Below are positions 5,606 to 64,000 of a stretch of DNA of 64,000 nucleotides, piece after piece; the stretch's first letter is position 1, and each line of letters opens with the position of its first letter. The translations under genes and the position numbers were made by a program. The notes under the pieces are model-generated. The model was not told the origin of the DNA. It was given only the letters and a program-made list of their open reading frames with translations, and made no database searches. Source of the DNA: Halapricum desulfuricans (GTDB lineage: Archaea > Halobacteriota > Halobacteria > Halobacteriales > Haloarculaceae); the NCBI RefSeq assembly GCF_017094525.1, contig NZ_CP064788.1, positions 2,775,030-2,839,029 on the forward strand. The letters run 5' to 3'.

Positions 5606-6544
5606 CTATCCCTCATTCGGGAACGGGACGTCGATCGCCCGTCCGTCCTCGGCGACGAACGCGCGTTCGCCCTCGAATACCGCCCGAGCCTCGTCTTCGA
5701 GCTGTCCGCCCCGTCCCGCGTAGCGCGTCGAGATGTGTGTCAGCGCCAGCCGTTTCGCCCCGGCCCGGTTGGCCAGCTCTGCGGCCTGCTTCGCGGTCGT
5801 GTGACCGGTCTGTCCGGCCCGGTCGCGGTGGTCCTCGCCGAAGGTCGCATCGTGGATCAGCAGGTCCGCGTCGTCGGCGGCCTCGACCGTCGCGGCCGTC
5901 GGGCTCGTGTCGCCCGTGTAGACCACCCGCCGACCCGGGCGGGGCGGGCCGACGACTTCCTCGGGCCGGATCGTCCGGCCGTCGTGTTCGACCGGCTCGC
6001 CGGCGTGCAGTTTCGAGTACTTCGGTCCCGGCGGGATACCGAGTTCGTCTTCCGCCTTTTCGCGGTCGAACCGGCCCTTTCGGTCGCCCTCGATCAGGAC
6101 GTACCCGACCGACTTCGTGCGGTGGTCGGTCTCGAAGGCCTCGACGGTGTAGGCCTCGCGGTCCAGCACCGCGTCGCCGGGAGCGACCTGATGGATCCGG
6201 AGGGGATAGGTCGGCCGTTCGCCGGTCGCCTCGATCAGCTGTTCGAGGTGACTGCGGGTCCCGTGGGGCGCGTGAATCGCCAGCGGGTCGGTCCGATCGT
6301 TGAAGTCCAGCGTCTGCAACAGCCCGGGGATTCCGAGGACGTGATCGCCGTGCAGGTGCGTGACGAAGATGTGCGAGACGTCGAACCCGGTCGAGAAGCG
6401 CATCATCTGGCGCTGGGTCCCCTCGCCGCAGTCGAACAGGAACCGCTCGCCCTCCCTGCGCAACAGCACAGCCGAGGGGTTGCGCTCGGTCGTCGGCACG
6501 GCCCCGCTGGTCCCCAGGAACGTCACGCGCATCTCGTCGGCCAC
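5606..6544 (-). CDS. rnz: Ribonuclease Z (tRNA 3' endonuclease)
   Basis: A 312-residue metallo-beta-lactamase fold enzyme that cleaves the 3' trailer of tRNA precursors. Motif II HLHGDHVLG (about residues 63-71) supplies the zinc ligands. Further ligands lie in VVYTGDTSPT, LLIHDATFGEDH and ALTHISTRYAG. MRVTFLGTSGAVPTTERN is the usual start, so either ATG (6544 or 6532) would do. Length is normal for the short tRNase Z form. The gene is divergent from the TrkA gene. Confidence 0.93.
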   Translation of the reverse strand: MADEMRVTFLGTSGAVPTTERNPSAVLLRREGERFLFDCGEGTQRQMMRFSTGFDVSHIFVTHLHGDHVLGIPGLLQTLDFNDRTDPLAIHAPHGTRSHLEQLIEATGERPTYPLRIHQVAPGDAVLDREAYTVEAFETDHRTKSVGYVLIEGDRKGRFDREKAEDELGIPPGPKYSKLHAGEPVEHDGRTIRPEEVVGPPRPGRRVVYTGDTSPTAATVEAADDADLLIHDATFGEDHRDRAGQTGHTTAKQAAELANRAGAKRLALTHISTRYAGRGGQLEDEARAVFEGERAFVAEDGRAIDVPFPNEG

Positions 6545-6615
6545 TCACAGGTCCGCGAGTAAACCCCCTTCGGATCGCCGCAGTGTTTTTACCTGTGGTT
6601 GTGTATGACACACGC

Positions 6616-7269
6616 ATGAAGTTCGTCATCGTCGGCTTCGGCCGGGTGGGCATCCGCACCGCGCGGATTCTCAGCAGCGAGAACCACGAGGTCACAGTCA
6701 TCGACAGCGACCCGGAAAAAGTCGAGCGTGCCAGCGAGGAGGGGTTCACCGCACTGCAGGGCAGCGGCGACGACGAGTCGCTGCTAGAGGAGGCGGGCAT
6801 CGAGACGGCCGACGCGATCGCGGCGCTGACCGACGACCTCAACGTCAACTTCTCGGCGTGCATGATCGGCAAACATCACGGCGCGCGCACAGTCATGCGG
6901 ATCGACGCGGACTACCGCGAGGAGATCTACGAGGCCTACGCCAGCGAGGTCGACGAGGTCGTCTATCCCGAGCGACTGGGCGCGGCCGGTGCCAAGACGG
7001 CCCTGCTCGGCGGTGACTTCAACGTGCTGGCGGACCTGACCGAGCGACTGTCGGTCGCGACCATCGACGTTCCGGACGGCGCGGACGTGGTCAGCAAGCG
7101 CGTCGTCGAGGTCGAGTTGCCCGGCGACGCGCGCATCTACGCGCACGGACGACGGAACGAACCGATGTCGATCCCGCTGCCCGACACGACGATCGAGGCT
7201 GGCGACACTGTCGCGGTCACCACCGATCCGGACTCGCTCGAGGCCATCAGGGCGACGCTGGGCGCGTGA
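6616..7269 (+). CDS. TrkA-family NAD-binding regulatory protein
   Basis: A 217-residue cytoplasmic RCK protein. The start MKFVIVGFGRVGIRTARIL is the GxGxxG nucleotide-binding loop of TrkA-N (1-120), and residues 135-217 form a TrkA-C ligand domain (VSKRVVEVELPGDARIYAHGR). Such proteins gate Trk/Ktr potassium transporters, but no transporter gene is adjacent. The ATG at 6616 directly precedes the Rossmann strand. A T-rich stretch at 6591-6597 is a plausible TATA element for a leaderless mRNA. Confidence 0.85.
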   Translation: MKFVIVGFGRVGIRTARILSSENHEVTVIDSDPEKVERASEEGFTALQGSGDDESLLEEAGIETADAIAALTDDLNVNFSACMIGKHHGARTVMRIDADYREEIYEAYASEVDEVVYPERLGAAGAKTALLGGDFNVLADLTERLSVATIDVPDGADVVSKRVVEVELPGDARIYAHGRRNEPMSIPLPDTTIEAGDTVAVTTDPDSLEAIRATLGA

Positions 7270-17811: not shown

Positions 17812-18435
17812 ATGGACGTACCGACCGGGGACCCCGCGGGGGAGCTGAGCGAGACACGCCGGGAGCTGATCGAAGCGACGCGGGACGCGATGTGCAAACA
17901 TGGTTTCGCCGATCTGACGATGCAGGCGATCGCCGACGAGTCCAAGAAGAGCAAGGCGGCGCTGCACTACCACTTCGATACGAAGGCCGAACTGCTGGCC
18001 GAGACGCTGTCGTACCTGCTCGCGGAGTTCATCGAGGAGGTCGATACCGGTCCGAAAGGCGATCCCGAGGCGCGACTGCGGGCACTCACGGAAGCCCAGC
18101 TGTTCGGCCCCGACGGCCGGGACGGCGACTCAAGCGACCACTGGGAGTATCACGCGATGCTAATCGAGATCCAGTCGCACGCCCCCCACGACGAGACGTT
18201 CGCACAGCAGTTCACCGCCAATTACGAGTACGTCAGAGGACTCTACGCCGATATCATCCGGAACGGCATCGAACAGGGTGTCTTCGAACCGGTCGATCCC
18301 GACCGGACCGCGGCGCACATCCTCGCCGCGATCAAGGGCGCACGCGTCCACCACGTCACCACCGAGCGCGAGGACGTCGCCGCGACCGTCTACGACGCGC
18401 TGATCAAGCAGGTGCTCGAACCGCTCCGCGCCTGA
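17812..18435 (+). CDS. TetR/AcrR-family transcriptional regulator
   Basis: 207 residues. The N-terminal helix-turn-helix (about 18-60) reads GFADLTMQAIADESKKSKAA followed by LHYHFDTKAELLAETL, the hallmark of TetR repressors. The helical C-terminal domain (about 65-205) would bind a small ligand. A palindrome lies just upstream, suggesting autoregulation. The target genes are unknown; the divergent thioredoxin is the nearest candidate. Confidence 0.88.
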   Translation: MDVPTGDPAGELSETRRELIEATRDAMCKHGFADLTMQAIADESKKSKAALHYHFDTKAELLAETLSYLLAEFIEEVDTGPKGDPEARLRALTEAQLFGPDGRDGDSSDHWEYHAMLIEIQSHAPHDETFAQQFTANYEYVRGLYADIIRNGIEQGVFEPVDPDRTAAHILAAIKGARVHHVTTEREDVAATVYDALIKQVLEPLRA

Positions 18436-52579: not shown

Positions 52580-53455
52580 ATGAAATACGAGTACGCAGGC
52601 GACGTCCACAGCGAGCTTGTCGAGTCGTATCGAGCAGACGAATCCCCGTTTCCAACGGATTCATCACGGACGTATCCGCGCCGCGAGTTCCTGCGTGAGG
52701 AACCCCCCCTTCTCAAACAGCTCCTGTTTCCCAGATGCTGGAACGCGACGGAGTTGCTGGACGATCCCGATGCAACCCACAGTCGGCTGACTGAGCTGGG
52801 TCGCTGCGTGCAGACGGGCATCACCGCCTATTCGGATCACGACGAAGCGGCCGTGACGGAGCTGGTCGACGGGACGCTTGACCAGTTGCCGGCGATTCGA
52901 CGCACCCTCAAAAAAGACGTCGAGGCCGCGTACAAGGGCGACCCCGCAGCAAAGAGCTACTGTGAGATCATCCGGTCGTATCCCGGGTTTCACGCGATCC
53001 TGACCCATCGTGTTGCGTATGTCCTCTACGAATCGGACGTCTTCGCCTACGCCCGGGAACTCTCCGAGTACGCGAGAACCGAGACCGGGATCGATATCCA
53101 CCCGGGTGCTGATATCGGCGAGTACTTTTTCGTCGATCACGGGTCGGGCGTCGTCATCGGTGAGACCGCGACGGTCGGTGACTGGGCCCGAATCTATCAG
53201 AACGTCACGCTGGGTACGCTCCACTTCGAGGAAGAAGAGGAGGGCGAAGACCACATGCTTGCAAAAGACTACAATCGCCATCCCGACATCGGCGACCACG
53301 TCGTTATCGGTGCCGGAAGCAACGTGCTCGGGACGGTCGAAATCGGCGATCACGTGAGTATCGGTGCGAACTCCTGGGTGACCGAGGACGTTCCGGACGA
53401 TACGAGCGTGTTTGTAGCCGATCATCCCAAACAAAAGCGGAAATCGAACAGGTGA
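52580..53455 (+). CDS. cysE: Serine O-acetyltransferase
   Basis: 291 residues. Helical N-terminal domain (1-160), then a left-handed beta helix of hexapeptide repeats: TGIDIHPGADIGEYFFVDHG, GVVIGETATVGDWARIYQNV, HPDIGDHVVIGAGSNVLGTV and VEIGDHVSIGANSWVTEDVP. His in FVDHG and the Asp nearby are catalytic. It acetylates serine for cysteine synthesis. An insert of six acidic residues (FEEEEEGED) interrupts the helix, as in EpsC-type proteins. Preceded by a T/A-rich ATGAATATTGG region. Confidence 0.92.
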   Translation: MKYEYAGDVHSELVESYRADESPFPTDSSRTYPRREFLREEPPLLKQLLFPRCWNATELLDDPDATHSRLTELGRCVQTGITAYSDHDEAAVTELVDGTLDQLPAIRRTLKKDVEAAYKGDPAAKSYCEIIRSYPGFHAILTHRVAYVLYESDVFAYARELSEYARTETGIDIHPGADIGEYFFVDHGSGVVIGETATVGDWARIYQNVTLGTLHFEEEEEGEDHMLAKDYNRHPDIGDHVVIGAGSNVLGTVEIGDHVSIGANSWVTEDVPDDTSVFVADHPKQKRKSNR

Positions 53456-53567
53456 CTGTCGAGACGCGTCTCAGACATGCAGTCCACTCTCACAGGTACG
53501 ACACGGTGACGGCACTATCGGTTCGCGCGAGCCGCGAACGGTGCTGACCGGGCAGTGGCCGTTGGAG

Positions 53568-53768
53568 TTATCCGTGGAACCGGTACAGTGAGGTGACGTA
53601 TGGCAGCCGGTTGAGCACTGTCGGCACGAGGTTGATCAATTTGATCCCGATCGGGAGCAGGACGACCGTGACGTTGAGTAGCCACGCAGTGTTCACGACG
53701 ATCGGTGTTGCCCACCAGCCGACGAACACGAACCACAGCGCACGAACCCAGAAAGAACGTTGTGCCAT
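53568..53768 (-). CDS. YccF-domain membrane protein
   Basis: 66 residues: MAQRSFWVRALWFVFVGWWA, then VNTAWLLNVTVVLLPIGIKL and NLVPTVLNRLPYVTSLYRFH. Two hydrophobic helices and the VGWW plus AWLLN motif match the YccF family (DUF307), small inner-membrane proteins of unknown function. Full length for a single-domain archaeal version. Confidence 0.75.
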   Translation of the reverse strand: MAQRSFWVRALWFVFVGWWATPIVVNTAWLLNVTVVLLPIGIKLINLVPTVLNRLPYVTSLYRFHG

Positions 53769-54310
53769 CAGTTGTCCTAGATGTCCAGAAGGTAAATCCG
53801 TACCGTTGGGTCCGGCGTGGGTCGCGTCGCTCAGACGTCGTCTCTGCACGTATCGCGGATTCGAAAACGCGAGAGCTCATCGTCACGCTCGACCTCTTGA
53901 CACGCGCATTCGTCTCCGGGAGGATCGAGACGTTCGACACACTCTGACTCAATGAGCGATTGATTTCCTCTGGTGGGCCAGTGTGGCCGGACACGAACTC
54001 CCGTAGCCATCACTCGCCCGGTCACGCATCGAACGAAAGCACACACATTCCAACAGTAGAACAGGAAACGCCGGAATCTGAGCCTGTCGGCCGTGATTTT
54101 GGGACGAATCGCAGCGATGGGCGCTGGAGGCGCTTGTCCGACTGTCAAATGAATCTCCTTTCCAGGCGTGAGGCGTCCGAATCCCGGTAGCTCAGAAACA
54201 GCGATTTGTCAATTGGAATTCCTTTTGTGACGATAGTAAAAGATATAGAGCGTGCGTATCTCGCCTGCTTGGTCGTGCCGGGCTCCCAGCCCCGACCGAC
54301 AGAAATATGC
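53769..54310. other. 542-bp intergenic region with the first long repeat copy
   Basis: The left part has a doubtful plus-strand frame from GTG 53762 to 53947 (ending DLLTRAFVSGRIETFDTL), which overlaps the YccF start and has no recognised relatives. From about 53965 to 54250 the sequence matches 63095-63375 as a direct repeat. No RNA gene recognised. Confidence 0.4.
53965..54250. repeat. Long direct repeat, left copy (83-bp identical core 54117-54199)
   Basis: About 280 bp align with 63095-63375 in the same orientation. The core ATGGGCGCTGGAGGCGCTTG through GTAGCTCAGAAAC (54117-54199) is identical to 63251-63333 over 83 bases, while the flanks differ at perhaps one base in four or five. Short frames on both strands cross it, but the identity runs through their stops. 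Confidence 0.85.
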
Positions 54311-54739
54311 CTAATTTCCTTTTGTTGCGGTCCAGGTCGCACTCGCTTCGACAGCATTCTTGACTGTGAGGCGAGCTACTTCCGGTGGGGAATCGCCGTC
54401 ACCGCCGGCGGGAAGAAACTGGAATTCAATCGGGGCTCCCTCTTCCCTGAGTTGGGCCGCTAGAGTGACGACATCGCCTCTCTCAGCGGTGACGAATTCA
54501 CGCCGGACGAGTGTCTCTCCGTCGCCAACGGTTGTATCGAGCGAGGCATCGTATTCCTCAGGGCTGGCAGTCACTGATACGTCTACAGCCGCCTGGTCCG
54601 TGTTCTCGACGACCAGTGTTCCGCCCGGATACTCTGGACTCTCGTTCCCATGCCCGAGCGGGGCGAGACCCATACAGCCTGCAGAAGACACGCTCCCGAG
54701 AGCGGCACCGATCGTCCCGAGATAGCGTCTTCTGCGCAT
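54311..54739 (-). CDS. Exported lipoprotein
   Basis: 142 residues. MRRRRYLGTIGAALGSVSSA followed by GC is a Tat-like/lipobox signal (twin or tandem arginines, then hydrophobic run and Cys22). The mature part is a beta-rich domain (GGTLVVENTDQAAVDVSVTA ... VARLTVKNAVEASATWTAT) like the many small haloarchaeal immunoglobulin-type lipoproteins. No ligand assigned. Confidence 0.72.
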   Translation of the reverse strand: MRRRRYLGTIGAALGSVSSAGCMGLAPLGHGNESPEYPGGTLVVENTDQAAVDVSVTASPEEYDASLDTTVGDGETLVRREFVTAERGDVVTLAAQLREEGAPIEFQFLPAGGDGDSPPEVARLTVKNAVEASATWTATKGN

Positions 54740-55094
54740 ATACAGGCCTAGACAAACGGGTAGAAAAGTGTCTTTTGCCACTTCGATACTCTGGTGCCGA
54801 TCCGTTGATCGGACTCGCCCCCAGTATCTTTCATATAGATTGTATATGATTTGAAACCGATAGAGAGATCAGAGAGAGAACTCCGCAGGTTGGCAGCTAT
54901 TTCGATCTAGGCACGCTGAACCGGACGTTTTCCTCAATCAGAGCGACGCTTCAGTTCCGCTATTCATACCGGTTGGGAAGTGCCGAGGTTGTGAGCCAGC
55001 CCAGTTAGCCCTTGCCGTGACCCGGACGGCACACACCCCTCGCCAAGAGTGAAAACTGGATACCTCCGAGCCACACGCTTTTTGTGGCTAACTC
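54740..55094. other. Intergenic region, nothing recognised
   Basis: 355 bp between the lipoprotein start and the stop of the saccharopine dehydrogenase-like gene. It contains AT-rich sequence with a possible TATA element for the lipoprotein (TTTCATATAGATTG, about 54828-54841), but no gene, repeat or hairpin that I can support. Confidence 0.4.
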
Positions 55095-56360
55095 TCACAC
55101 TCCCGGCCCTGTCGCCTCGCTCACGGTTGCAGTGAATCCGACTGCCCGCAGACGGTCGGCCAGCGGCGTTCCGATTGCAGCGGCGGGCGTCAACACGCCA
55201 CCGGACAGCGGTGAGTCCGTGTCGTCCTCATACAGACACATCCCGGCCTCGCCGAGCATCCGCGCCGTCGCGCCGTACCCCGGCCCCCAGTCGGCCCCGA
55301 ACTCTGCCTCGACGGTAAATCGGTTGCCGTCAGCCGTCCCGCGGCCGAGCACCCGGATCGTGAAGTACCCCTGGTCGGTCTCCTCGCTCGTCGGCCCCTC
55401 GCCAGGGTCGGGGAACACGTACGTCCGGATGCCCGACCGGAGCGGTCCGACCGACATCGCCGCCGAGAACAGCCCCAGACCACCGGCGACTGCGCCCGCT
55501 GTCGCCGCGCCCCTGAGACCGCGCCCGGTAGGAACAACCTCCGAACAGCGAAACTCCCGACCCCAGGGATAGCCCAGGAGAGCGTTGCTCCGCCTGACGA
55601 TACGCTCGTTGACGGGGGCCATCGGTGACGGTGCCGTCCACTCGTCTCGCAGTGGGTCCTGCTTGGGCCACCGTTGTTGGCCCGGGTCGACACCGTCTCG
55701 CTCGCCGGGCGGGGCCAGCGAGTAGGGGTTCGCCAGCGTCTCCCGGGCGACCGGGTCCTCGGCGGCGGTCTCGAACAGCTCGCCGAAACTGGCCAGCGTA
55801 CCGCCGCTGACGCCCTCACTCCCGTCCTCAACATAGATGCGGACCGTGTCGCAGGGGACACCGAACGTCTCGCGAGCGAACGACTGGACGAGAGCAGTCC
55901 CGATGTCGGCGGGGACGGAATCGAACCCGCAACTGTGGACGATCCATGTCTCTGCCTCGACCGCCGCGTCGTGGAACTGGTCGACAGTCTCGCGGATCCA
56001 GTTTACTTCGCCCGTCAGATCGCAGTAGTCAGTTCCAGCGCCGATACACGCCTCGACCAGCAGTGTGCCGTACGTGGTGTACGGGCCGACGGTCGTGCAG
56101 ACGACTGCCGTACTGGCGGCCAGCTCTCGGAGACTCGCCGGGTCGGTCGCATCGCCGAGGATGATCGGAACGTCGGTCCATTCAGTCCCTTCGGCGAGGT
56201 CAGCCGCCAGCGCTTTGAGGCGTGTCTCGTTCCGGCCACCAATCGCCAGCGTGACCGCGCTCGGGTCGTATTGCTCGGTGAGGTACTCGGCGACGAGCCG
56301 TCCGGCAACGCCTGTGGCGCCCCAAACGACGATGTCGTACTGTCGATCGGTGTCGGCCAT
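55095..56360 (-). CDS. Saccharopine dehydrogenase-like NAD(P)-binding protein
   Basis: 421 residues. YDIVVWGATGVAGRLVAEYL is the Rossmann loop, and AIGGRNETRLKALAADLAEG, TTVGPYTTYGTLLVEACIGA and IVHSCGFDSVPADIGTALVQ follow the saccharopine dehydrogenase-like/trans-acting enoyl reductase pattern known from mycobacterial lipid synthesis. A hydrophobic segment at about 285-300 (GAATAGAVAGGLGLFSAA) may touch the membrane. A reductase role on lipids (for example polyprenyl chains) is inference. Confidence 0.82.
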   Translation of the reverse strand: MADTDRQYDIVVWGATGVAGRLVAEYLTEQYDPSAVTLAIGGRNETRLKALAADLAEGTEWTDVPIILGDATDPASLRELAASTAVVCTTVGPYTTYGTLLVEACIGAGTDYCDLTGEVNWIRETVDQFHDAAVEAETWIVHSCGFDSVPADIGTALVQSFARETFGVPCDTVRIYVEDGSEGVSGGTLASFGELFETAAEDPVARETLANPYSLAPPGERDGVDPGQQRWPKQDPLRDEWTAPSPMAPVNERIVRRSNALLGYPWGREFRCSEVVPTGRGLRGAATAGAVAGGLGLFSAAMSVGPLRSGIRTYVFPDPGEGPTSEETDQGYFTIRVLGRGTADGNRFTVEAEFGADWGPGYGATARMLGEAGMCLYEDDTDSPLSGGVLTPAAAIGTPLADRLRAVGFTATVSEATGPGV

Positions 56361-56479
56361 CCTTCCGGTGTAGGGTTCCCGGGGTCTACACCCTTTGGGG
56401 AATGTATGTCACGACTCCCGGATCTCGGGATGTCGTTCCCGCAAGTGCGTACAGCAGTATCGCGGCAAAAGCCCGCGCG

Positions 56480-56689
56480 CTAGTCGTTGCTGACCATGAC
56501 TTCGCTGGCCTTGATCACGGCAGCGACCTCATCGCCGGGTTCGATATCGAGCCGTTCGAACGAGTTGCGCGTGATCGTCGAAGTGACCTCCTGGCCGTCG
56601 CCGAGTTCGATCACGACTTCGGCCATCACTTGCCCGGTTTCCACGTCTGTGACGGTACCTTCGAGATGGTTTCTGGCGCTGAGTGCCAT
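56480..56689 (-). CDS. Molbindin-like TOBE-domain protein
   Basis: 69 residues: MALSARNHLEGTVTDVETGQ, EVTSTITRNSFERLDIEPGD and EVAAVIKASEVMVSND form one TOBE (Mop) domain, which binds molybdate or tungstate oxyanions as oligomers. It would buffer molybdenum for enzymes such as the reductase encoded at 27413-29728. ATG 56689 is preferred over 56692. A MITE lies only 24 bp upstream and must affect its promoter. Confidence 0.85.
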   Translation of the reverse strand: MALSARNHLEGTVTDVETGQVMAEVVIELGDGQEVTSTITRNSFERLDIEPGDEVAAVIKASEVMVSND

Positions 56690-56713
56690 CATCCAATTTA
56701 CCGGGTCATAGCA

Positions 56714-56829
56714 AGTTGAATGTTCCCCCGCGTGGGGGGACCCCTATGCTCACGAGAGCAAGCCTCCTGTTTCGAGGGGATGCAGATCCTTGAAACGCAG
56801 ATCCACCGTGTGCGGGGGAACATTCAACT
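56714..56829. mobile_element. 116-bp MITE with 18-bp terminal inverted repeats
   Basis: AGTTGAATGTTCCCCCGC at 56714-56731 is perfectly repeated in inverse at 56812-56829, and AGCA flanks both ends (56710-56713 and 56830-56833) as a 4-bp target duplication. The 80-bp interior codes for nothing and has short hairpins (GCTC ACGA GAGC) and a repeated GCAGATCC. This is a non-autonomous transposon; the parental IS is not in this window. Confidence 0.85.
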
Positions 56830-56902
56830 AGCAGTTCAACGTTGAAAGAGCACTAATTGACTGACTCGATGGGGAAGGAGATCGACTATGATCGCGTGAA
56901 AG

Positions 56903-59791
56903 TCATCGAGAGCGGGGCAACTCGATTTTGACGCGGTTTCCGCTGGGATCGTTCTCCTCGAAGACAACCGTTCCGTCCGACCGCGTGACGATCCAGTACA
57001 CCAGCCACAGCCCGAGACCGCTCCCATGATAGAGCGGATCCACCTTCTCGCCGCGGGTGCCCACTTGCTGTTCCATATCCGGAATCGCCGGCCCGTTGTC
57101 CGCGATCTCGAGGGAGACGTGTTCATCGTCCCGGGAGACAGTCGTTTTCACGACTGGTGACGCCGTGTCGTTGTGTTGGATCGCGTTGACGAGGAGTTCT
57201 TCGACGGCCTGACCGATCCGGGACGACGCGACGACCGTGATGTCGTCCGGACAGTGGACGTGGATCGTCGCGTCGGGATAGTCTTCGGCGACCGACTGTG
57301 TGACGCGCTGGAGGAGATCGTTGATCTCGAAGGTGTCCTGAACGGGTCGCTCGAGCAAGACCTCCGTGATCATCCGCTGTTTGTTGGCCGTGTCCACGAG
57401 CTGGTCGCTCTTGGTGCGGATCGATTCGGCGTGGGTGGCGATCGTCCCGGACGTCGCGTCCTGAATAGCTTCGGCGAACCCTCGTATGACGTGTATATCG
57501 TTGCGGATATTGTGTCTGAGAACACGCTCGAGTACCTGCAGGTGCTGTTCGCGCTCCTTGCGCTCGGTGATATCACGCTGGGTTCCCAGCCAGCGGACTA
57601 GATCGCCGTCGGTATCGTAGACGGGTGTGACCGTGACCTGGCTCCAGAACATCGTGCCGTCTTTGCGGTAGTTGCGCAACTCCACAGTGGTCTGTTCCTC
57701 GTTGTCGATCGCCGCGCGGAGATCGGCTACCGTCTCCGGATCGGAGTCGGGGCCCTGGAGCAGCCGACAGTTCTCGCCGAGGAGTTCCGCCTCAGAGTAG
57801 CCGGTGAGATCGGTGAACGCCTCATTGATGTAAACCATCGGGTTGTCGTCTTTCGCGGGATCAGTCATTGTCAGGGGAATGTGGGCCTTGTCGATCGCCT
57901 GCCGGAGGCGGTATAACTCGTCTTGCTGTTTCCGCATCTCGGTGACGTCCTTGTTGACGGAAACGAAGTGAGTGGTCTCATCGCTATCGTCGGTTACCGG
58001 TGCGATCGTCTTGTTGACGACGTACCGGTCGCCCTGCTTTGTCGTGTTGATTAACTCGCCGTGCCACGTATCTCCCCTGAGGATCGTGTCCCACATCTCT
58101 TCGTAGAGTTCCTCGTCGTTTGCCTCCGAACGGAGGATCGCCGGCGTTCGCCCGACTGCTTCCTCGGCACTGTAGCCGGTGGTCCGTTCGAACGCCGGAT
58201 TGACGTATTCGATCGTTCCGTTGCAGTCCGTGATATAAATCGAGTGCGCCGAGGCCTCGATGGCGCGCCTGAAACGCCGGAGGTCCCACTCGCGCTGCTT
58301 GCGCTCGGTGATGTCCTTGTTCGTACAGATGAGTTTCCCGTCGTCGAGCCGGGAAAGCGTGAGCTCGTGGTGGACCCGCGTTTCGTGACGAGTTTGCCCG
58401 ACTGCTTCGCCTCGCCACTTCCCGGCGTCTTCGATCTCCGGGAACACCGTATTTTCGAACCGCGCGATTTCCGCTTCGTCGTAGAGACAGCGCCACGTCC
58501 GTCCGAGGAGGTCCTCGGGATCGTATCCGAAGACGTCGGCGTGGGCCTGATTCATGTAGATGAACTCGCCGGTTTCGTCGAGGAGAGCGATCCCCTCCAT
58601 CGACACTTCCATGGCCTCGGCCTGCGTCTCCAGGCGCGATTCGCGCTGCTTGCGTTCCGTGATTTCCTGAACGATCCCGATAGCACTCACCGGGTTCCCT
58701 GCGTTGTCGAACTCGAAATCGGCGTTCGCCCTGACCCACTTTGTCTCACCGCCATCCGTCACGATCCGGTGTTCGATGTCGTACGGTTCGCCCTCCTTTG
58801 CGGCCTGCCACTGCTTCGCGACGGCGTCCCTGTCGTCGGGGTGGACGTACTCCATATAGGTGTCCTCGTCGATACTCCGGGTACCGTCCGCGAAGCCCCA
58901 GATATCACAGATTTGCTCGGACCAGTACACCTCGCCGGAGCGAAAGTCCATAGACCAGTAGCCGAGATTCGCCACGTTCTGGGCCTTTTGAAGCTGGATC
59001 TCTCGCTCGCGGCGATCGGTAATGTCGGTGTAGACCCCCAACGCTTTCGATCCGCCGTTGTAGACCGCGTTCTGCAGAATGAAGTGCCGTTCGCCGCTGT
59101 TCGTTCGACGCGTGACTTCCTCGGAGACGAGTCGCCCGGTCGACTGGACGCGGTCGTTGATCTCCCTGGCGCGTTGCTGGCGGTCCTGTGGAACGATATA
59201 CGAATCGAGTGACTCCCCGATGATCTCCTCGGCAGAGTAGCCGAACGTCTCTTCGAACGCGGAGTTGACCTGTCTGACGATCGGCTCATCGGACTGGTAC
59301 TCGATCTCGACCGTCGGCTGGGGGAACTGTTCGAACAGGGTTCGAAAACGACGACGGTGCTCCTCTAGTTCGCGTTCGTACTGTTTGCGTTCGGTGATGT
59401 CCTGAACAACACCGACGGCAGTACCAGGCGTGCCGTCCTCATCACGCTGGACCGTCGCCCGCTGGCGGACCCACCGGGTGTCGCTGTCGTCCGTCACGAG
59501 CCGGTGTTCGATGTCGAACCCGCCATCCTCTCCGAGTGTGCTCCAGTTCTCCTCGACGACAGCTCTGTCACTTGGATGAACGCGCTCCAGAAACCGCTCG
59601 TCGGTGAGAGGTGTGTCCCTGGGCACATCAAGGAGCCGTTTGAGTTCCGCCGACCAGTACACCCGGTCGTCGGTCAGATCCCGCTCCCAGCTACCAAGGT
59701 TCGCGATGGCCTGTGCGTCTCTGAAGTGGGCGTCTCGGCGCTCACCCGAGTCGGACACGCTATCAGTCGAGGAGTCGTGTGATTTGGACAT
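56903..59791 (-). CDS. Six-PAS histidine kinase with a LOV-type PAS domain
   Basis: 962 residues, cytoplasmic. Six PAS domains lie at about 20-140, 147-262, 265-385, 388-500, 501-625 and 626-745, most ending in a DITERK-type linker. The sixth contains GENCRLLQGPDSD, the LOV core GxNCRxLQ with Cys675, plus LRNYRKDGTMFW and LGTQRDITERK with the conserved Gln, so FMN binding and a light-driven cysteinyl adduct are expected. The kinase core follows: H-box RVLRHNIRND (His760), N-box LLVNAIQHND, G1 IADNGPAIPD and G2 GSGLGLWLVYW. The gene is 23 bp after cheW in the transducer operon. Earlier PAS domains lack the LOV Cys. Confidence 0.88.
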   Translation of the reverse strand: MSKSHDSSTDSVSDSGERRDAHFRDAQAIANLGSWERDLTDDRVYWSAELKRLLDVPRDTPLTDERFLERVHPSDRAVVEENWSTLGEDGGFDIEHRLVTDDSDTRWVRQRATVQRDEDGTPGTAVGVVQDITERKQYERELEEHRRRFRTLFEQFPQPTVEIEYQSDEPIVRQVNSAFEETFGYSAEEIIGESLDSYIVPQDRQQRAREINDRVQSTGRLVSEEVTRRTNSGERHFILQNAVYNGGSKALGVYTDITDRREREIQLQKAQNVANLGYWSMDFRSGEVYWSEQICDIWGFADGTRSIDEDTYMEYVHPDDRDAVAKQWQAAKEGEPYDIEHRIVTDGGETKWVRANADFEFDNAGNPVSAIGIVQEITERKQRESRLETQAEAMEVSMEGIALLDETGEFIYMNQAHADVFGYDPEDLLGRTWRCLYDEAEIARFENTVFPEIEDAGKWRGEAVGQTRHETRVHHELTLSRLDDGKLICTNKDITERKQREWDLRRFRRAIEASAHSIYITDCNGTIEYVNPAFERTTGYSAEEAVGRTPAILRSEANDEELYEEMWDTILRGDTWHGELINTTKQGDRYVVNKTIAPVTDDSDETTHFVSVNKDVTEMRKQQDELYRLRQAIDKAHIPLTMTDPAKDDNPMVYINEAFTDLTGYSEAELLGENCRLLQGPDSDPETVADLRAAIDNEEQTTVELRNYRKDGTMFWSQVTVTPVYDTDGDLVRWLGTQRDITERKEREQHLQVLERVLRHNIRNDIHVIRGFAEAIQDATSGTIATHAESIRTKSDQLVDTANKQRMITEVLLERPVQDTFEINDLLQRVTQSVAEDYPDATIHVHCPDDITVVASSRIGQAVEELLVNAIQHNDTASPVVKTTVSRDDEHVSLEIADNGPAIPDMEQQVGTRGEKVDPLYHGSGLGLWLVYWIVTRSDGTVVFEENDPSGNRVKIELPRSR

Positions 59792-59814
59792 GAAGCGGTC
59801 TTTCCCCCTGTGGA

Positions 59815-60231
59815 TCAGCTACCGGTATCGGTTATGACGTCGTTGACCCGGCGTGGCTCGACCCACAGCCTCTCGCCGATGACGCCGTGGACGTACTCGT
59901 TGTCGGTGACGGGATCGACCTCCGGGTCCGGGACCGTCGTGACTTCGTGGGCGCGGTCGACCAGCCAGCCGACCTGCTGACCCTCCTGCTCGAAGATGAT
60001 AACGTGATCGGCGTCCTGGCTGTCGGCAGCCTCGATCACCGAACCGGGGTCGACGACCGGCGTCTCCTCACCTCGGTACTCCATCGTCCCCACGACCTGT
60101 GGGGGACCCTCCGACGTCGGTGTGACAGACTCGTGTTTGACCACTCCTCTGATCCTGCTAATCTCCACACAGCACCACTCCTCGCCCAGCGTGAACGTGA
60201 GGACTGCCGCCGACGGGCCGGCCTGTGTCAT
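59815..60231 (-). CDS. cheW: CheW-like chemotaxis coupling protein
   Basis: 138 residues of the CheW fold: VLTFTLGEEWCCVEISRIRG, GTMEYRGEETPVVDPGSVIE and VIIFEQEGQQVGWLVDRAHE. It would connect transducers to CheA. Its start ATGA overlaps the transducer stop by four bases, so the two are translationally coupled. No cheA, cheY or other che gene is in the window; this adaptor may serve a remote kinase. Confidence 0.87.
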   Translation of the reverse strand: MTQAGPSAAVLTFTLGEEWCCVEISRIRGVVKHESVTPTSEGPPQVVGTMEYRGEETPVVDPGSVIEAADSQDADHVIIFEQEGQQVGWLVDRAHEVTTVPDPEVDPVTDNEYVHGVIGERLWVEPRRVNDVITDTGS

Positions 60232-62597
60232 CGTTGCCCCTCCCGTGGGGTGGTCGTCTCGCCCGGTGACGTGTGGCCGCCGTCGGCCTGTGCCCGGGCC
60301 GACGGGCCACTCTCGCCCTCGCTCGCCAGCGACGCGCCGGCGGTGACACTGTCGCGGATCTCGAACATCGAAACCTGGTCGTGGAGGGTCTCGGACAGCG
60401 CAGACAGGTCTTGGACGCTCTCGGAAACGCCCGACAGTGACGAGGTCTGTTCCTCGGTCGCGGCCGAGACGTTGCTCGCCTCCGCCGCCGTCTGCTGGCT
60501 CACGCTCGACACCTCATCGACCATCGCGACCACCTCTTCGGAGGATGCCGCCTGATCGTCGGTCGCATCGCTGATCTCCGTGATGCCGGACTCGGCCTCT
60601 TCGACGGCATCGGCGATTTCGTCGAACATCTGGATCGCCTCCTCGATAGTTTTCGACCCCCGGTCGATGCGCTCGCTCATAGCCTCCATCCCCTCGACCG
60701 TCTCGGCCGTGGTCGACTGGATTTCGGTTATCCGGCGTTCGATCTCGGTCGTCGCGTCGGCGACTTCCTCGGCGAGGGTCTTGATCTCGTCGGCAACCAC
60801 GGCGAAGCCTTCGCCGGCCTCGTCGGCGCTTGCCGCCTCGATCGAGGCGTTCAGCGCCAGCATATTCGTCTGCTCTGCGATCCTCGTGATCATCTCGACG
60901 ATATCGCCGATCTCGTCCATCTTTTCATCGAGTGCCTTGACCTGACTCGACGTCTCTTCGGCCTGGGCCTCGATGGACTCGATCTCCTCAGTCGCTTCAT
61001 TGGCGTACTCCTGGCCGGTTTCGCTCCGCTCGACGGCTGTCGTCGCCGTCGCAGCGACCTCTTCAGCCGATGCGGCGATCTCCTCGACGGTTGCCGACAT
61101 CTCGTTCATCTCGCTGGCTACCTCCTGGAGGTTCTCGCTCTGGGTGTCCGCGCCGTGTGAGATCTCCTCGACCGACTCCGCGACTTCCTCGCTTGCGGCC
61201 TCGATCTCTTCGGTACTGCTGGCGACCTCCTGGCTGGAGGTCGCGACCTCGTCCGCGATATCCTGAACAGTCTCGATACTGTCGCTCAACTGTTCCAGGC
61301 CCGATTCGAGATCGGTGAGAACCTCGCCGTACATCCCGGGATAATCAGTGTCGAGACGACGGTCGAGCTGGCCCGTTTTGAGCCCCTCGCTGGCGGTCGA
61401 GATCTGCTCGAAGCCCGCCGCGAGCTGTGCCGTGCCGTCGTCGATGTTCGCCAGCACGGTCCCGTACTGACCGGGCTGGTCCGTGTCGATGTCCCGATCC
61501 AGTTTCCCGGTCTTGAGCCCTTCACTGGCGGTCGAGATCTGCTCGAAACTCGCCGACAGTTGCGTCGTGCCTGCGGCGAGGTTGTCCAGCACGTCCCCAT
61601 ACTGACCGGGCTTGTCCGTCTCGATCGACTGCTCGAGCCGGCCGTGCTTGAGATTGTCGCTCGCCCGCTGGATCTCCTCGAAACTGACGGTGAGCTGATC
61701 GGTCCCCGAATCGAGACTCCGCATTATCTCGCCGTACGTCCCGGGGTAGTCCGTCTTGAGATCACGGTCCAGCTCCCCGGTTTCGAGGTTCCGGCTGACG
61801 GCTTCGAGTTCGGCAAAGACGCCACGAAGGTTCGTCTGCATCGTCTCGAACGCCTCGACCATCCGTCCGAGTTCGTCGCTTTCGACGTGATCGTCGAGAT
61901 CGATGTCGAGATTGCCCTCGCTGGCGGCGCGAGCGGCGTCGGACAGCTGGGAGACGGGCGTCATGATCCGCCGTGAGACGAACAGGCCGATAGCGATAGC
62001 AACGACGAACGCTCCGATCGTCAGGCCGATTACCTCGGTCTGTGCGTTCTCGGTCGTCTGATCGGCAGCAGCGACCTGTTCGTCCAGATCCGCCTGTGCG
62101 GACTGCTCGATCGAATGGGCGTTCTCTTCCATCGACGTGCCCAGCGACTCCATCTCGCTGGCCGTCTGTTCGGTACTGGCGTCGTCACCGGCTTCGACAG
62201 CCCTGAAGAACTCCTCGCCGAGCGTGTTGTACTCCTCGTGTTGGGACTTGATGTCGGAGAACTCCGCCTGCTGGTCGGCGGAGAGGCTCGCCGAGTCCAG
62301 TTTCTGGGCCTGCTCGTCGAACAGCTCGTTGGCCGCCTCGAACTCCTGTCGGGCGTCGGATGCGCCGAGCTGAGCGGCCAGAACGGCTTCCTGCTGTTGC
62401 TCGACCGCCACGATAAGCGACGCTGCGGCGTCCATCTTTTCACCGTCCTCCGCGATCACGTGCACCTCCTCGTCGACGGCACCAACGGACGTGTATCCGA
62501 TCGCGCCGGTCACGGCGACCAGCGCGGCCACGAGGACGAACGCGAGAATCAGTTTCGGTCGCAAGTCGAGTCTGTCAATCGTCAATTTCTCAATCAT
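60228..62597 (-). CDS. Halobacterial transducer (MCP) with poly-HAMP array
   Basis: 789 residues. TM1 (about 15-37, KLILAFVLVAALVAVTGAIG), an extracellular four-helix domain (40-190), TM2 (about 195-215), HAMP, then four HAMP-like repeats of about 47 residues, each with a D-Y/Q/K-PG-x-YG signature (TDYPGTYGEIM, TDKPGQYGDVL, TDQPGQYGTVL, TDYPGMYGEVL). The C-terminal MA domain has the hairpin tip GEGFAVVADEIKTLAEEVAD. First gene of the transducer-cheW-kinase operon. ATG 62597 aligns with the kinase at 9081. The ligand is unknown. Confidence 0.93.
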   Translation of the reverse strand: MIEKLTIDRLDLRPKLILAFVLVAALVAVTGAIGYTSVGAVDEEVHVIAEDGEKMDAAASLIVAVEQQQEAVLAAQLGASDARQEFEAANELFDEQAQKLDSASLSADQQAEFSDIKSQHEEYNTLGEEFFRAVEAGDDASTEQTASEMESLGTSMEENAHSIEQSAQADLDEQVAAADQTTENAQTEVIGLTIGAFVVAIAIGLFVSRRIMTPVSQLSDAARAASEGNLDIDLDDHVESDELGRMVEAFETMQTNLRGVFAELEAVSRNLETGELDRDLKTDYPGTYGEIMRSLDSGTDQLTVSFEEIQRASDNLKHGRLEQSIETDKPGQYGDVLDNLAAGTTQLSASFEQISTASEGLKTGKLDRDIDTDQPGQYGTVLANIDDGTAQLAAGFEQISTASEGLKTGQLDRRLDTDYPGMYGEVLTDLESGLEQLSDSIETVQDIADEVATSSQEVASSTEEIEAASEEVAESVEEISHGADTQSENLQEVASEMNEMSATVEEIAASAEEVAATATTAVERSETGQEYANEATEEIESIEAQAEETSSQVKALDEKMDEIGDIVEMITRIAEQTNMLALNASIEAASADEAGEGFAVVADEIKTLAEEVADATTEIERRITEIQSTTAETVEGMEAMSERIDRGSKTIEEAIQMFDEIADAVEEAESGITEISDATDDQAASSEEVVAMVDEVSSVSQQTAAEASNVSAATEEQTSSLSGVSESVQDLSALSETLHDQVSMFEIRDSVTAGASLASEGESGPSARAQADGGHTSPGETTTPREGQR
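61300..61750. repeat. Tandem coding repeats (HAMP units) in the transducer gene
   Basis: Blocks about 141 bp apart share long stretches such as CTGGCGGTCGAGATCTGCTC (61389-61408 and 61527-61546 region). They encode successive HAMP-like units. The near identity at DNA level suggests recent unit duplication or gene conversion. Confidence 0.7.
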
Positions 62598-63467
62598 TGT
62601 GTGTATGTGGCCAGGTCGAGGATTACAAGCATAAATAATTTCTTCTCGATTGTCAACTATGATATTGGGAGAAGAGAAATATATATTCCTATTATCGATA
62701 CATAACATATATATGGCGAGTATGTAGACGAATTCTCATACTTCAATGGTTAGACTAGTGGTGCTTCAATTATGATTGAAGAAGACGTCCGGTTCGATCT
62801 CGGGCATGGACACTCAGAGAACGAACGCCTCATCCTCTAACTTAACGCGACCTGATGGACCTCCCATCCTATTTCAGTTTCCTGGTGGAAGCTGCGATTC
62901 TTGTTGCCGTCCTGCGTATGCTCTACCAGCTATACACGTGGAAACCGCCGCAAACGGTCTAGACAACCGTCCACAGACTTCTCGGCCTGTCCAAGGCCGC
63001 GGGCTATCTATAGCTGCCACTGTGCTGAATTCACACTCTAAGTCTTACACGCGGATTCTGACAGAATGTGAAGCAGTAGTGTCTATCAGCGATTAATCTT
63101 CTCTGTTGGGACCAGTGTGGCTGGATGCGAGCTCCCGTGGCCACCACTCGCCCAGTCGCCCATCGAACGAAAGCAAACACATCTCAACAGCAGAATGCGA
63201 AACGCCCGAATCAGGGGCTGTGAGCCGTAGTTTCGGGAAGAATCTCGGCTATGGGCGCTGGAGGCGCTTGTCCGACTGTCAAATGAATCTCCTTTCCAGG
63301 CGTGAGGCGTCCGAATCCCGGTAGCTCAGAAACGACGATTTACCAATTGAAATACCGTTTGCGGTGACGGTGAAAGAGATAGAGCGCGAATCGGTCGCCG
63401 GTCTCTCTGGAGTTGGTGAGGAGACGAATCGGTAGAGACAGTTGGGCCCATCACCACAATTCCGGCG
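62598..63467. other. 870-bp intergenic region with the second long repeat copy
   Basis: Upstream of the transducer the sequence is AT-rich (62640-62760), including a likely promoter around 62680-62720 (AGAGAAATATATATTCC region). No gene is convincing in 62760-63090. From 63095 the long direct repeat begins and runs to about 63375, followed by 90 bp up to the stop of the next kinase. Confidence 0.4.
63095..63375. repeat. Long direct repeat, right copy (83-bp identical core 63251-63333)
   Basis: Direct repeat of 53965-54250, 9134 bp away, same orientation. It follows the stop of the partial histidine kinase. The identical 83-bp core is 63251-63333. Confidence 0.85.
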
Positions 63468-64000
63468 TCACGCCGTTGGAAGTTGGACGGTAACGATGGT
63501 TCCACGCGGCCCGTTCTTCTCAATCATCAGCGTCCCATTGGAGTGGTCGACGAGCAGGTTGACAAGCCAGAGTCCGAGTCCTTTCCCGTGATATAAAGGC
63601 TGCACCTCTTCGCCCTTGATCAGGACTTGTTGTTCGATCGCCGGGATCCCCGGGCCGTCATCTGCCACGCGAATCTGAACCGTCCCCCCGTCGCAGTCAA
63701 GACCCACCGTTACGGATGGGGCGGCTCGATCCGAGTGAATGATGGCGTTCTCGACGAGTTCCTCGATGACTTTCTCGAAGGAACTGACTGCAAACGCGGC
63801 TTGTGCGTCGGGTACGTCGACCGAGATGTCGGCATCTGGATAGCGGTCACGAAGCCCCTCTATCGTCGTGGTAATGAGTGGGACGATATCACGTGATACA
63901 GGTTGCGGGTTATCAGCCAGGAACTTCGTGACGTCCCGTTCCTTGTCTGTTGTTTGTATGAGTCGCTCACCACTCCGAATAATCGTCTCTGCGTATTCCT
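63468..64000 (-). CDS. Histidine kinase, C-terminal part (5' end outside window)
   Basis: The frame is open to the window edge, giving 177 residues: end of the dimerisation region (RSGERLIQTTDKERDVTKFL), then HATPase_c with N-box VIEELVENAIIHSD, G1 VADDGPGIPAIEQQ and G2 GKGLGLWLVNLLVDHSNGTL. The region closely resembles the corresponding part of the LOV kinase (AVEELLVNAIQHND, GSGLGLWLVYW), so it is a paralogue. Its sensor domains lie beyond 64000. Confidence 0.9.
   Translation of the reverse strand, partial: EYAETIIRSGERLIQTTDKERDVTKFLADNPQPVSRDIVPLITTTIEGLRDRYPDADISVDVPDAQAAFAVSSFEKVIEELVENAIIHSDRAAPSVTVGLDCDGGTVQIRVADDGPGIPAIEQQVLIKGEEVQPLYHGKGLGLWLVNLLVDHSNGTLMIEKNGPRGTIVTVQLPTA

Follow-up and report, generated by a model that had tools for sequence, protein, structure and literature searches.

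The window, a stretch of 64,000 nucleotides of Halapricum desulfuricans (C1:2775030-2839029 of a 2.89-Mb single-contig genome), contains a block of sensory genes enclosed by two long repeats. What these repeats are, and how the block came to lie between them, is the question raised by this locus. The initial annotation had described same-orientation direct repeats bracketing a 9.1-kb block, and the pair is real: one direct repeat of 291 nt (53975-54265 versus 63109-63399) was 83% identical between its copies, which lie 9134 bp apart on the same strand. Profile matching extended the pair to 53949-54252 and 63082-63386. The longest identical tract measured exactly 83 bp (54117-54199 and 63251-63333), the length that had been given for an identical core. 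On the sequence data, we believe with a probability of roughly three in four that the repeats are att sites, produced by SNJ2-family insertion at the 3' end of tRNA-Arg(TCG), with tandem stacking, integrase-less units and, in addition, homologous exchange between arms. The features of the region are as follows.

53855-53947, plus strand: decayed vapC remnant, whose middle is gone, leaving part of the N-terminal region and the C-terminal end, abutting the left arm of site 1
53949-54252, plus strand: putative att site 1, with left arm 53949-54116, core 54117-54130 and right arm 54131-54252 (model match 1-305)
54117-54130, plus strand: 14-nt core ATGGGCGCTGGAGG of site 1, the first bases of the 83-bp identical tract
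54311-54781, minus strand: lipoprotein-like protein of 156 aa, no Pfam match
55095-56360, minus strand: saccharopine-dehydrogenase-like NAD(P)-binding protein (PF03435)
56480-56692, minus strand: single TOBE domain protein, molbindin-like (PF03459)
56903-59791, minus strand: multi-PAS sensor histidine kinase (PAS families and HATPase_c)
59815-60231, minus strand: CheW-like protein (PF01584)
60228-62708, minus strand: methyl-accepting transducer with a HAMP domain (PF00015, PF00672)
63082-63386, plus strand: putative att site 2, with left arm 63082-63250, core 63251-63264 and right arm 63265-63386
63468-63998, minus strand: C-terminal part of a PAS histidine kinase, the first gene of the next unit, running past the window end and resembling the PAS kinases of the array

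The six enclosed genes were those that had been claimed, with Pfam support for all except the lipoprotein-like protein. The multi-PAS kinase may carry an NCRxLQ motif of the LOV type. The core occurred exactly twice in the window as an exact match and not at all on the minus strand, and a tRNA scan of the window found none. The sequence beside the core had been suggested to be an ancestral coding 3' end on the minus strand. This did not hold up, as stop codons interrupt the frame in several of the 8 copies that were read. The 28 variable columns of these copies were spread 8/9/11 over the three codon positions, and a coding remnant in the right arm was ruled out by the stops together with this even spread. 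A palindrome reading of the site was also rejected: once the seed copies had been oriented, the site profile gave no two-strand signal, and self-comparison of the consensus gave no long inverted repeat.

The repeat is no chance resemblance: it was found at 10 places genome-wide, with E-values from 1.9e-147 to 1.4e-37. Nine sites in the same orientation lie within 2828978-2867544 (38.5 kb), and one more lies at 935 kb. A more sensitive model found 11 sites, adding a weak one at 1894373 beside a second vapC copy, and the repeat was also matched on the H. desulfuricans plasmid NZ_CP064792. The rightmost site of the array extends into a minus-strand tRNA-Arg(TCG) gene (C1:2867532-2867606). The core is the reverse complement of the 3' end of this tRNA plus one flanking base, and the 83-bp identical tract begins at its first base. 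Each site consists of a left arm (~168 bp), the core (14 nt) and a right arm (~120 bp), in this order. Between the nine sites lie eight units of 0.64-8.8 kb with a site at both ends. The transposase of unit 2, the regulator of unit 7 and both assignments of unit 8 are sequence readings only.

Unit 1: the sensory block of the window
Unit 2: KaiC-like protein, PAS kinases and a transposase
Unit 3: Doc toxin and a 46-aa protein
Unit 4: response-regulator PAS kinase
Unit 5: vapBC
Unit 6: PAS kinase
Unit 7: Usp, a regulator, TrkA and TrkH
Unit 8: a transposase and exported proteins

These data bear on earlier proposals. The block could be excised, as had been proposed for recombination between the repeats; its description as a lone repeat-bracketed segment has to be given up, the block being one of eight array units. 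The repeat does not behave as an ordinary dispersed repeat without variation: nine of its ten genomic places belong to a single array, and related species differ in what their arrays contain and in how the units are ordered. Gene conversion or constraint had been offered for the identical core, and we judge this to be right. The 83-bp tract, which runs from the core into the right arm next to differing left arms, fits a core crossover between related units or conversion. In the following, G000 is the H. desulfuricans genome itself, other G numbers are relatives' genomes and L numbers are fetched loci. The vapC remnant (translation of 53705-53948) has the same junction to the left arm as the intact vapBC cassette with its VapC at L035:3485-3901, which indicates a decayed further unit to the left of site 1. 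A 94.9% identical copy of the lipoprotein-like protein lies beside a site in G001.

Some smaller observations were made in this genome. The degenerate site at C1:1894373-1895207 (L118) lies beside a vapC copy with an internal stop, and the only nearby tRNA is tRNA-Ile. The right arm of the Doc unit carries an ~81-bp insertion with inverted-repeat ends (L034, ~18180-18270), which looks like a small MITE and is absent in G001 and G002. A transposase-like gene is present twice, in opposite orientation and in two array units (L034 16197-17510 and L035 13133-14446), with 99.4% identity over 1404 bp.

A site model based on sequence only (R1), built from 18 sites, was searched against the family at E <= 1e-4. 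It matched 61 of 146 family genomes, from 12 of 22 genera, and found no site in the other 85. In loci fetched around many of the matches, 121 sites were mapped. The 3' part of the model includes the vapB start, so matches restricted to ~243-303 were left out of the site count; several vapBC loci of Natrialbaceae type match only this part. Among vapC loci found by name, sites reaching the core were present in Haloarcula rara, Haloarcula amylolytica, Halosimplex salinum, Halorientalis pallida, Salinibaculum litoreum, Halorubrum sp. Hd13 and others, and the reversed-sequence control for these loci gave zero matches. No copy of the site was found in phage records. An exact 31-nt pattern had no match in the genome-contig collection, which may leave out records near the window.

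The ends of the sites were strongly asymmetric. Where a tRNA-Arg lay no more than 600 bp away on the side of the right arm, every one of the 27 sites ended at model position 175-190, compared with 12 of the remaining 94, sites of related genomes not being independent in these counts. Among the 12 exceptions, an integrase ORF comes next in five (L047, L048, L112, L121, L123), a half-site made of core plus right arm comes 69-112 bp further on in six, and L110 has neither. At the other end, 26 sites begin at model position 150-186, that is, with the core and right arm and without the left arm. Half-sites that end at the core and half-sites that start at it are the products expected when a circular element with the order left arm-core-right arm inserts into the tRNA core. 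The target was tRNA-Arg(TCG) in most loci and tRNA-Arg(CCG) in some, and there the core follows the CCG tRNA.

In many genomes, the core is separated from the tRNA by one mini-unit of ~100 bp or by several in a row (L099, L115, L128, L110, L125, L098, and L106 at 6538-6888). Each contains a copy of the tRNA 3' end, an inverted copy of T-arm sequence and a hairpin-like stretch, and they are possibly array units of the smallest size. In L039 (2881-3064, G001), a site lost its core by deletion between two TCGAACGAA repeats in its left and right arms.

Empty sites were sought in Haloarcula. The sequences on either side of the lone vapBC unit in G074 were joined at the core, and the genus was searched with the joined sequence. 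In G074 itself the match is broken at the join, into 1-362 and 349-700. G079, one of the genomes in which the model found no site, aligns over 246-700 without interruption. By script, 11 of 13 Haloarcula loci compared span the join unbroken, with >50 bp on the left, and continue into the tRNA; among the empty-site genomes, at least G076 and G078 have a site elsewhere. Taken together, the site anatomy, the end asymmetry and the unbroken empty sites indicate that the repeats are att sites and that the sensory block belongs, as a single unit, to a tandem accretion array.

Integrase genes stand beside such sites in relatives. An integrase directly follows the core in L047, L048, L112, L121, L123 and L129, and by coordinates one also adjoins the site in G118, G119 and G151 (about nine genomes in all). 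The site-adjacent ORFs are tyrosine integrases (PF00589), the one of G025 falling below the Pfam cut-off. The integrase of G031 was 46.5% identical to the SNJ2 integrase and 45.9% to that of HHPV4. Five of six site-adjacent integrases were 51-77% identical to each other, and tree support for the group was moderate (87/95); the rows G001 and G002_C27 of this tree look like wrong-frame picks. In G131, G111, G155, G091, G025 and G031, a tRNA-Arg(TCG) is found ~19-66 kb past the site, with side and strand as expected, and each of these intervals would correspond to one element. The consulted sections of PMC8371274 give 14 nt as the length of the SNJ2 att site and state that the archaeal integrases characterised do not require a directionality factor. 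The array of H. desulfuricans (2828978-2867544) had no PF00589 match, and L034 and L035 had no match to the profile of the site-adjacent integrases. Its genome contains no member of the site-adjacent group, the best relative being 44% identical (at 1817571), so mobility here, if any, would need an integrase supplied in trans.

From these observations, we propose the following mechanism. An SNJ2-family tyrosine integrase would recombine circular elements into the 14-nt core at the 3' end of tRNA-Arg(TCG). Each insertion would restore the tRNA and leave an att site at each junction, and repeated insertion would give a tandem stack of units. Autonomous elements would carry the integrase directly after the core. 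Most units would be devoid of it and movable only by an integrase acting in trans. Short units would be recurrent toxin-antitoxin cassettes (vapBC, Doc with its 46-aa partner, DUF433/DUF5615), and the 9.1-kb sensory block would be a larger integrase-less unit. The long arms would also recombine homologously, mixing arms and cargo. That the integrases of relatives act on these very sites, and that units move in trans, is what the arrangement of genes and sites suggests.

The cargo was counted in 63 units between consecutive sites at least 300 bp apart; this count omits 7 gaps of <300 bp and locus L051, which overlaps L119 and holds one Trk unit. Sampling was partly steered by vapC: a good part of the 36 fetched loci was chosen for a nearby vapC, which inflates the share of vapBC, and Doc was no criterion. 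Within this partly biased sample, a toxin-antitoxin relative is present in 25 of the 30 units of <1300 bp (vapBC in 11, Doc with the 46-aa protein in 10, DUF433/DUF5615 in 3 and a second vapBC type in 1), compared with 5 of the 33 longer units. All 45 toxin-antitoxin matches in units read in the same direction; the genes of the window's own unit lie on the opposite strand to it. No relative of VapC was found in viral contigs. The order of units varied, with vapBC before Doc in G002 and G130 and Doc before vapBC in G000 and G001. The toxin-antitoxin genes may serve to stabilise the array.

These compact units are important for the strongest competing explanation, in which the integrase-less units are decayed remains of complete integrative elements. 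The arrays would then record past insertions, contain no dedicated cassettes and no longer move anything. We regard this as possible and lean against it. Several observations favour it: N-terminal remnants of integrases lie inside those of G001 and G136, a broken integrase is present in G120, a decayed vapC abuts site 1, the H. desulfuricans genome is without a close integrase, and the G001 site in L039 has lost its core. The sizes of the short units argue against such an origin. All 11 vapBC units of <1300 bp measured 633-643 bp between sites (two further vapC units were longer), and Doc units of 733-982 bp recurred in 10 arrays. Had each unit decayed independently, one and the same compact form would not be expected to remain every time.

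Homologous recombination has also left its traces. The Doc cargo of G003 was 95-96% identical to that of G000, G001 and G002 (Halapricum), with arms ~55-63% identical, and the Trk/Usp cargo of G000, in a TCG array, was 97% identical over 5685 bp to that of G005, in a CCG array, with diverged arms and cores. At G005:C1:2055306-2062285 (L119, L051), a vapBC unit and a Trk/Usp unit are stacked at tRNA-Arg(CCG). For vapBC in G000, G001 and G002, the inner right arm was 94-97% alike, as was the cargo; the inner left arm was about as alike as the left arms of unrelated units in two of the three pairs. A test of arm-cargo co-inheritance did not yield the clean result predicted by a simple cassette model. 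Two shared cargos are thus far more alike than their arms, which means that homologous exchange has also acted and that arms do not simply travel with cargo. Such recombination, between arms or across genomes, has probably reshaped the array.

It is improbable, in our view, that homologous recombination did everything, with 300-bp direct repeats spreading and exchanging blocks and no site-specific recombinase involved. The repeats are long and mostly 80-90% alike within the genus Halapricum, the arms are mosaic and the cargo is homogenised apart from them, as this explanation expects. It leaves unexplained why 27 of 27 sites stop at the tRNA 3' end, why the far ends have no left arm, why empty sites are precise and why integrase genes stand beside the sites. 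Very little weight can be given to the idea that the repeats are functional non-coding elements, such as an RNA gene or a regulatory region, kept alike by host selection: some stretches of the left arm do show strong conservation between genera, but Rfam gave no match up to E = 1 in 53000-64000, no site was found in the 85 family genomes mentioned above, and the anatomy fits att arms. Large integrons are rich in toxin-antitoxin pairs. A true integron with an IntI-type integrase and folded attC sites would account for tandem one-way cassettes rich in such pairs and for an adjoining integrase in some genomes, but it is hardly credible here, since single-stranded folding of 53949-54252 was no better than chance (z -0.04 versus 100 shuffles), the integrase of L121 scored 24.7 bits on integrase_gron against a cut-off of 265 and matched Xer/SNJ2 types, and the main text of the archaeal integron survey PMC9668308 has no words beginning Halobacteri or haloarchaea.

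We therefore return to tRNA-anchored att sites and compare them with known systems. The array is closest in kind to CIME accretion arrays and to the ssrA islands of Dehalococcoides, and resembles integrons by analogy only. As described in the consulted part of PMC5704250, CIMEs of Streptococcus retain att sites but have no integrase, and together with elements that carry one they form tandem stacks next to a tRNA gene. The units of the array are likewise att-flanked at both ends and integrase-less, with insertion at a tRNA 3' end that is restored. They differ in that they occur in haloarchaea, with an SNJ2-type integrase, sites of ~300 bp and eight units in one row, and in that units of ~1 kb recur as the same toxin-antitoxin cassette in several genera. 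With regard to descent from ICEs or IMEs, integrase genes were looked at, and their remnants were seen in some arrays. The Dehalococcoides ssrA islands, in the sections consulted of PMC3146451, are many and tandem, each flanked by directly repeated copies of an RNA gene's 3' end, and 15 of them are without an integration module and are called possible CIMEs. They have a serine recombinase, a tmRNA gene, 20-bp repeats and reductive dehalogenase cargo, whereas the haloarchaeal array has a tyrosine integrase, tRNA-Arg, long arms and toxin-antitoxin and sensory cargo.

The SNJ2-like betapleolipoviruses share a 14-nt att core at a tRNA, and the site-adjacent integrases of relatives were 42-46.5% identical to those of SNJ2, HHPV4, Halfgib1 and HRPV9. 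Such an integrase is present beside the relatives' sites but absent from the window's unit and array. The annotations of Harhisp1 and Halfgib1 place attP immediately past the integrase gene's 3' end, whereas here the core lies just before the integrase start. Integrons, including the archaeal ones in the consulted part of PMC9668308, are similar in their one-way tandem cassettes, each with a recombination site, and in that some arrays stand beside an integrase; here, in contrast, there is no IntI and no folded attC, and a tRNA gene serves as the anchor. Searches of the open-licence literature on archaeal integrases, tandem or cassette arrays, accretion and tycheposons gave no account of this array.

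A more ambitious interpretation is a dedicated, integron-like shuffling platform of haloarchaea, in which SNJ2-family integrases encoded by larger elements would move, in trans, toxin-antitoxin cassettes of ~1 kb and larger cargo units, all with double-stranded att sites of ~300 bp. The platform would have tRNA-Arg(TCG) and tRNA-Arg(CCG) as its anchors, be stabilised by toxin-antitoxin units and have arisen independently of the IntI/attC integrons. We hold this to be rather unlikely as a whole. The proposed att-site array makes sharp predictions, namely core junctions, empty sites and an integrase to test, and would be a test case for trans-acting integrases of the pleolipovirus type. It would explain how modules for sensing, potassium transport and toxin-antitoxin functions come to be shuffled among species of haloarchaea, always at fixed tRNA genes. 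It would also show that cassette stacking arose in archaea without integrons.
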